Part shown: positions 32,398-34,150 of the stretch, piece by piece
How the letters are laid out: each line of letters begins with the position of its first letter
How positions within the stretch are numbered: position 1 is the stretch's first letter
Assembly: GCA_013298595.1 (NCBI GenBank)
Contig: JAAFIG010000022.1
Coordinates: forward strand, 1-64,000
Origin: Deinococcales bacterium
GTDB lineage: Bacteria > Deinococcota > Deinococci > Deinococcales > JAAFIG01
Length of the DNA: 64,000 nucleotides
Direction: 5' to 3'
The notes under the pieces: generated by a model
Seen by the model: only the letters and a program-made list of their open reading frames with translations
Databases searched by the model: none
What the model was told of the DNA's origin: nothing
Position numbers and translations under genes: made by a program

Positions 32398-34068
32398 TCA
32401 GTCTTCACTCGTTCCATCGTCTGCCATTTTGACAATTCTTGGGTCAAATCGTGCTACCACTTTGACCAAATCGGTTTGGGCGTTCATGACTGAATCAATG
32501 TTTTTATAAGCCAGTGGATTCTCGTCAATACCCGCCGATAAGAGGGTTACACCTGCTGCCTCGAGTTGCGGTTTAATCATTTTCCAATTGAATTGCTCTT
32601 TGGCTTTGGTGCGGCTCATGGCTCGTCCCGCACCGTGGCTGGCACTATGTAAGCTGTTGGCGTTGCCCAGTCCTCGAACCACAAAACCTGGGGTTGCCAT
32701 GCTGCCCGGAATCATGCCAAGGACTCCGTTGCCAGCTGGCGTTGCACCTTTGCGGTGCACGTAGACATCCTTGGGTGTGCCGTCTATGTTGTGTTGCTCG
32801 AGCCATGCAAAGTTATGATGGTTTTCTAAACCAAATAGCACACTGGCGCCAATGGCTTTGATCACTTTTTTGTGAATCAGTGCATGGTTAGCACTGGCAT
32901 ACTCGCCCATTAAGTTCATGGCTGCCCAGTACTCGAGTCCTGCTTCTGAGGTCATATCGAGCCAAGAAAGGTGCTTGAGTTCCTTAGGTAATTCTGGGTG
33001 TAAACCCATGGCAAGGTTCGAGTAATGGTTTGCCACTTTCGCACCAGCGCCTCGTGAACCACTGTGCGATAACAAAGCTAGGTACTCGCCTGCTTCGAGT
33101 CCAAGGTCTGGTTTCTCGAGGGTGATAACGCCAAATTCAACAAAGTGATTACCACTGCCTGAGGTGCCAAGTTGCTCTCGAGCTTTACTGAACACTTCTC
33201 GAGTGACTCGGGTGACATTCCAGTCCATATCGAGTACAGCATGCTCGAGTGGGCGTTGCCAAGTTGCTCCTGCACCGAATTTGGTTTCGGATTCGATGGC
33301 TCGTTTTAATTCCTCGAGGTTACGGGTAAAGGCTTTAGAAACAGGGATATCCAGAATGGATAATTTCATTCGGCAAGCAATATCCACACCAACAGCATAC
33401 GGAATAATCGCACCTTCGGTGGCGAGTACCCCACCAATTGGTAAACCATAACCAAGGTGAGCATCGGGCATCAGTGCGCCACGAACAGCCACAGGTAAAC
33501 GCGCCGCATGACGCATTTGCTCGAGTGCCCCATTTTCGATTCCTTCGCCCCAAACTTGGTATGGCACTGGTTCATCTCGAGCCACAATCGGTTTTGGTTT
33601 GGTGAGTTCTGGAATTAAATCTGCAAAATGCCCGCTGTAATCGAGCGGATTAGCCATCAGCACTTTTAGATCGCGCAGCATTTCGCGCTTATCAGGGTGC
33701 GATTTTAAGAGTTGCGCGGTTAAAGCAAGGGCGCTTTGTGGAATGCCAAGGGCTAATAATTCTTTTGCTTTCATGATTGGTTTTTCCTTGTGTTGTGTTC
33801 GGATTGGTTCAGCGGCAATTGCTCCTGGAGTTGCTCCTGCTTCGCCTGAATGGGTTAAGTCATCAAACTTTGTGCGTCTATCCCAACGTATACCGCGATC
33901 ATCACGAATGTACTGTACTCGATGCCACGGAATTTCGCTTTGTCCAAAAGATTCAAGACTGGTTTCTTGTAAACCATCGAATCTTGAGTCGAAACCAACG
34001 CTGAAATCCGAGATTTCAAAACGTGGATCATGACTGATTTGTTTGTAAATGCTTTTTGCGGGGGTCAT
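32398..34068 (-). CDS. rtcB: MJ1316 (DUF504) domain fused to RtcB RNA ligase
   Basis: 556 aa. Residues about 1-78 form an MJ1316/DUF504 RNA cyclic-group end recognition domain (SIYKQISHDPRFEISDFSV, IPWHRVQYIRDDRGIRWDR). After a Gly/Ala/Pro linker the RtcB ligase follows, with VGVDIACRM (Mn-binding Asp/Cys), GSGNHFVEFG, LLSHSGSRG, LENHHNFAW and the guanylated His in SASHGAGRAMSR. RtcB joins 2',3'-cyclic phosphate ends to 5'-OH in RNA. The start is the ATG after AAGAGG. An internal ATG at 33774 with AAGGA upstream could also yield RtcB alone (458 aa). Confidence 0.9.
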   Translation of the reverse strand: MTPAKSIYKQISHDPRFEISDFSVGFDSRFDGLQETSLESFGQSEIPWHRVQYIRDDRGIRWDRRTKFDDLTHSGEAGATPGAIAAEPIRTQHKEKPIMKAKELLALGIPQSALALTAQLLKSHPDKREMLRDLKVLMANPLDYSGHFADLIPELTKPKPIVARDEPVPYQVWGEGIENGALEQMRHAARLPVAVRGALMPDAHLGYGLPIGGVLATEGAIIPYAVGVDIACRMKLSILDIPVSKAFTRNLEELKRAIESETKFGAGATWQRPLEHAVLDMDWNVTRVTREVFSKAREQLGTSGSGNHFVEFGVITLEKPDLGLEAGEYLALLSHSGSRGAGAKVANHYSNLAMGLHPELPKELKHLSWLDMTSEAGLEYWAAMNLMGEYASANHALIHKKVIKAIGASVLFGLENHHNFAWLEQHNIDGTPKDVYVHRKGATPAGNGVLGMIPGSMATPGFVVRGLGNANSLHSASHGAGRAMSRTKAKEQFNWKMIKPQLEAAGVTLLSAGIDENPLAYKNIDSVMNAQTDLVKVVARFDPRIVKMADDGTSED

Positions 34069-34150
34069 AAAAAATCCTCTTGCCACTATTGTGCAATAAA
34101 GATTTTTTGAATGCGCCTTTGTAATAGCGTAAGCAAGATGAGCTACTGGC

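Follow-up and report, generated by a model that had tools for sequence, protein, structure and literature searches.

An MJ1316-RtcB fusion as a candidate RNA-repair ligase with its own RNA-end-binding module

An MJ1316 domain is joined directly to the RNA ligase RtcB in a single gene on the minus strand of the window, the whole 64,000-nucleotide stretch analysed here, which comes from a 4.58 Mb genome in 68 contigs. We propose, with a probability of about 0.6, that this gene encodes an RNA-repair ligase with its own RNA-end-binding module, made in a long and a short form, and that the fusion was formed once in the ancestor of the family. What appears to be new is the direct junction; both domains are already known. 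RtcB opens 2',3'-cyclic phosphates and joins 3'-phosphate to 5'-OH RNA ends, and MJ1316 already counts as an RNA-repair domain, having been described in archaea and eukaryotes (LENG9-type proteins). A direct MJ1316-RtcB fusion was not met in the literature searched, the survey by Burroughs and Aravind (2016) lying outside that search. The features of the locus, in the order of transcription, are as follows.

34075..34080, minus strand: AGAGGA Shine-Dalgarno-like motif preceding the first ATG (34066-34068), duplex energy -5.8
32398..34068, minus strand: MJ1316-RtcB fusion gene, 556 aa, stop codon 32398-32400; Pfam matches to MJ1316 and RtcB; full-length intact orthologues in three other genomes
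33859..34068, minus strand: MJ1316 domain of the short IPWHR type, residues 1-70 (Pfam match 1-64)
33775..33858, minus strand: linker, residues 71-98; dN close to dS, length variable among orthologues and in frame in each
33785..33788, minus strand: AGGA Shine-Dalgarno-like motif, 10 nt before the internal ATG
33772..33774, minus strand: internal ATG (Met99), predicted second start; invariant in the four fusions, and the Met at which unfused RtcBs of the subfamily begin
33574..33774, minus strand: helical N-terminal region of the RtcB subfamily, residues 99-165, modelled as helices and outside the Pfam RtcB core match
32401..33573, minus strand: RtcB catalytic core, residues 166-556 (PF01139, 6.5e-86; alignments to PDB RtcBs; Foldseek)

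The fused frame and its domains

Read on the minus strand from 34068 to 32398, the gene is one stop-free open frame of 556 aa, with its ATG at 34068 and its stop ending at 32398; a GTG upstream, at 34086, is a less likely alternative start. The preliminary description had placed an MJ1316 domain and a complete RtcB in this one frame, and both were recovered by Pfam: PF04457 (MJ1316) matched residues 1-64 with 46.2 bits against a cut-off of 26.3, and PF01139 (RtcB) matched with 289.6 bits against a cut-off of 27. The MJ1316 part alone scored 50.3 bits in a whole-genome scan. Both domains were above their cut-offs in each of the four fused orthologues (46-54 bits for PF04457), and a motif similar to AGAGGA precedes the first start in every one of them. 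The IP[WF]HR and W-D-R motifs of MJ1316 are conserved in an alignment of 28 members.

The same description had claimed all expected metal and guanylylation residues, and in an alignment to Pyrococcus RtcB, from which the positions were read, D229, C232, H308, H335, H418 and H478 pair with D95, C98, H203, H234, H329 and H404, six identities out of six. By this alignment, the metal and guanylylation residues of the fused RtcB are complete. The AlphaFold model of the ligase part is mostly above 90 in confidence and was placed by Foldseek with solved RtcB structures (E 4e-30), so that at the level of the model its RtcB fold is confirmed. Helices were modelled at residues 101-155 (pLDDT mostly 80-91 in the model of the fusion). 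The helical N-terminal region of approximately 65 residues (33574-33774) was also seen in unfused relatives of this RtcB subfamily and is not covered by the Pfam core. The MJ1316 part had a mean pLDDT of ~50 alone and ~30 within the fusion, with only the window's own copy as alignment input, and a sequence search found no MJ1316 relative in the PDB.

Selection on the parts of the gene was estimated from the comparison with a genome of the same genus. The MJ1316 domain gave dN 0.26/dS 1.41 (~0.18), the RtcB core dN 0.09/dS 1.30 (~0.07) and the linker dN 1.04/dS 0.88 (~1). Judged from these values, purifying selection acts on the MJ1316 part, and the linker is neutral in its amino-acid sequence yet keeps the frame; its earlier characterization as translated spacer agrees with the missing amino-acid constraint. 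In the four orthologues the linker, counted from WDRx to the Met, is 33, 31, 32 and 17 residues long, with whole-codon changes and no stops, and this pattern is what a translated flexible linker shows.

An unconstrained linker would also be expected had two genes been joined by chance read-through or by an assembly error. No stop or frameshift was found between the two parts in the window, however, and the intact frame in three other genomes (67-80% identity) excludes an error of a single assembly. The frame is kept in four genomes from three genera and in four neighbourhoods, and as its length changes are in-frame only and stop-free, an assembly join is ruled out. Short of a translational quirk common to all of them, the orthologues have already refuted this reading, and we consider it extremely improbable.

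Distribution and age of the fusion

The window's genome belongs to an uncultured family (f1) represented by four sampled genomes in three genera, within a sample of 111 genomes of the phylum that contains Thermus. All four f1 genomes carry the full-length fusion, and the three copies from outside the window are 80, 68 and 67% identical to that of the window. MJ1316 occurs once per f1 genome and nowhere else among the 111; searching genome contigs with the MJ1316 part alone gave no confirmed match. The four genes sit in four different neighbourhoods with no flanking gene in common, indicating that the fusion gene was kept whole through rearrangement. No synteny was found around the fusion in the four f1 genomes, so no operon partner is available as a guide.

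In the RtcB tree the fused copies formed one clade (support 100/99), beside RtcBs of Phycisphaerales (Planctomycetota) and not with those of another family of the same phylum (f2); a few branches are long, and the placement beyond the fusion clade is tentative. The f2 RtcB begins at the position of the fusion's internal Met99. A second RtcB is present in the window's genome, and the RtcB of one genus of the phylum is nearly identical to Thermus thermophilus TTHA1785, from which the phylum is taken to be Deinococcota. The simplest reading of these data is a single fusion event in the f1 ancestor: the family would first have taken up an RtcB with relatives in Planctomycetota, and the fusion would have occurred once, in the family ancestor, afterwards. 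The preliminary description had called the fusion recent, which does not hold, as it predates at least three genera and synonymous change is saturated or near-saturated. That it arose from neighbouring genes, as also suggested there, is plausible in that MJ1316 and RtcB are neighbours elsewhere; the window's MJ1316, however, is of the short IPWHR type and not of the type in the sampled rtc operons.

Matches at two further loci seemed to carry N-terminal extensions; these were rejected, since the tblastn alignments had read across stop codons or into a non-homologous frame. At eight loci on IMG/VR contigs classed as viral, this RtcB subfamily has close relatives (48-56% identity) that lack MJ1316.

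A separate observation concerns the palindrome CTCGAG, by far the commonest hexamer in the window (positions 1-64000), with 393 copies (6.1 per kb) against 13 expected from base composition and 0-24 copies of each one-base variant. Its density was 6.6-7.9 per kb in the three other f1 genomes, 4.6 in f2, 1.3-2.5 elsewhere in the phylum and 0.3 in other bacteria, and half of the sites in the fusion gene are common to the genome of the same genus. CTCGAG looks like a highly iterated palindrome of the HIP1 type, denser by these counts than reported for cyanobacterial HIP1 (300-2700 per million; PMC4390886). No description of an iterated CTCGAG palindrome in this phylum was found in the literature searched.

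The internal start

A possible ligase-only product had been suggested from an internal ATG with AAGGA at 33774. Both are present in the window and conserved in the three relatives, which lends the suggestion support: AGGA lies 7-10 nt upstream of the internal Met in all four fused genes; it occurs in three codon phases, and the residues that it encodes differ. In ~125 kb of family sequence used as background, AGGA stood 5-11 nt before 15 of 571 internal ATGs (2.6%), rising to 5-8% for broader sets of motifs, and among the other in-frame ATGs of the fused genes it was found before none of 63. The nominal probability of the observed conservation ranges from ~6e-4 down to 5e-7 depending on the motif set; these figures overstate the case, as the four genomes are related and do not amount to four independent observations and AGGA was picked after inspection, although the broader sets agree.

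One alternative explanation is that only the full-length protein is made, and that AGGA stands before Met99 by chance or as a relic from a time when rtcB was a separate gene. The shared ancestry of the four genomes is compatible with this, as are the modest duplex energies of the internal motif (-4.2 to -7.4, where -4 is reached by 22% of internal ATGs). On the other hand, a relic would be expected to have eroded by now, given the neutral divergence of the linker and its near-saturated synonymous change, the varying codon phase and encoded residues speak against it, and only 3 of 20 unfused RtcB relatives carry the motif before their start, most being without it. We regard a single product as unlikely, and because of the expected decay of a relic we consider that a second, ligase-only product is probably made from Met99. 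The conserved motif that closes the linker would act as a second ribosome-binding site and start this form, and the cell would contain a mix of MJ1316-RtcB and RtcB.

MJ1316 partners and comparison with known systems

To place the fusion among other occurrences of the domain, PF04457 was sampled in genomes of Verrucomicrobiota (288), Planctomycetota (294), Chloroflexota (301), Myxococcota (282) and Acidobacteriota (297). No MJ1316-RtcB fusion was found in these ~1,460 genomes; likewise, no nearby or fused MJ1316 was found at 80 bacterial and 80 viral RtcB loci, and no MJ1316 in viral contigs and phage records. Several other associations with RNA repair genes were detected. In Pelagicoccus mobilis (locus L143, 5111-7828) a standalone MJ1316 gene lies between rtcA and rtcB, less than 30 bp from rtcB; a Ro60-like gene and a divergently oriented rtcR are close by, and the RtcB is 55% identical to that of the window. 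Two Myxococcota have the gene order rtcR (divergent), rtcB, MJ1316, rtcA, and in a third (genome G1318; L151, 3-1796) MJ1316 and RtcA occupy one 598-codon frame, whose MJ1316 scores 21.2 bits, under the Pfam cut-off, with the family motifs present. The contig of this third genome also carries a second RtcA-like stretch ~5 kb from the MJ1316-RtcA frame. The shorter IPWHR-type MJ1316, to which the window's domain belongs by alignment, forms the N-terminus of MJ1316-EEP-2H proteins in Planctomycetota, Myxococcota, Acidobacteriota and Nonomuraea, where the gene adjoins an RNA ligase-kinase gene. Three long frames around distant MJ1316 matches were not counted as fusions, having no other domain match or appearing over-extended. 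In one genome of the Verrucomicrobiota sample the MJ1316 matches are divided between two frames, and an internal TGA is present; this may be a copy in decay. Taken together, the associations with repair genes indicate that MJ1316 became linked to enzymes of RNA 3'-end repair on several independent occasions.

The chemistry of nearly all the partners found concerns RNA 3'-phosphates, cyclic phosphates or RNA ends. According to a statement in PMC6514570 that cites Burroughs and Aravind (2016), MJ1316 is predicted to bind RNA 2',3'-cyclic phosphate ends, and the rtc operon contexts found here are consistent with this. End recognition is thus a prediction of the literature, and one possible alternative is that MJ1316 serves more generally in RNA binding, scaffolding or regulation, for instance by replacing Archease-like activation or by binding the bodies of tRNA or rRNA. 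Its occurrence in MJ1316-EEP-2H and poly(A)-polymerase-like proteins would suit such a role; the partners found (RtcA, RtcB, a 2H phosphoesterase and an RNA ligase) argue against it, and we find it rather doubtful.

Under our preferred reading, in which the fusion is a repair ligase with an end-binding module, the intact active site of the fused RtcB would ligate RNA ends carrying a 2',3'-cyclic phosphate or 3'-phosphate to 5'-OH ends. MJ1316, held on its flexible, unconstrained linker, would bind the broken 3' end (2',3'-cyclic phosphate or 3'-phosphate), and the tether would raise the local substrate concentration for RtcB or select its substrate. No RtcA (PF01137) was found in the window's genome, and it is absent in f1; its absence from the genome is consistent with a ligase that takes its substrates straight from RNases generating a cyclic phosphate, and not from RtcA. 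A broader scenario, which we hold only tentatively and at less than even odds, is that the two conserved starts yield RtcB both bearing and lacking the tethered domain for RNA-end recognition, thereby directing a fixed share of the ligase to RNA with cyclic-phosphate ends, and that MJ1316 is a general, overlooked third component of RtcA/RtcB repair. If true, this would represent a built-in dosage of targeted versus untargeted repair ligase. The end-recognition role of MJ1316 rests on context. Its natural, conserved fusion to the one ligase that uses that very end, taken with the independent operon links to RtcA and RtcB, opens the prediction to a direct test in a bacterial enzyme and may account for the way in which RtcB locates rare damaged RNA.

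Four known systems may be compared with the fusion. The RtcB2-PrfH families (PRK09588/TIGR03073) were among the closest NCBIfam matches of the window's ligase part; membership in these equivalogs was rejected, the scores lying below the cut-offs (179.7 against 407 and 144.1 against 271.8 bits). Scanning seven neighbouring proteins revealed no release factor, and by its profile scores the window's RtcB is of a different subfamily. With the RtcB-Archease systems of Pyrococcus and human the fusion has the RtcB fold and active site in common, whereas Archease is an unrelated activator. RtcR-regulated RNA repair operons are described as rtcBA and rsr-yrlBA-rtcBA (PMC7790460); the RtcB ligase chemistry is common to these and the window, and in the Pelagicoccus and Myxococcota versions MJ1316 is an extra gene. 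They differ in that rtcA, rtcR and Ro60 are absent from the window, and that MJ1316 is separate there and fused here. Finally, the MJ1316-EEP-2H(-poly(A) polymerase) proteins, such as that of Nonomuraea, are RNA-repair enzymes that likewise begin with an MJ1316 of the short IPWHR type, but their partner consists of EEP and 2H phosphoesterase domains, whereas in the window it is RtcB.
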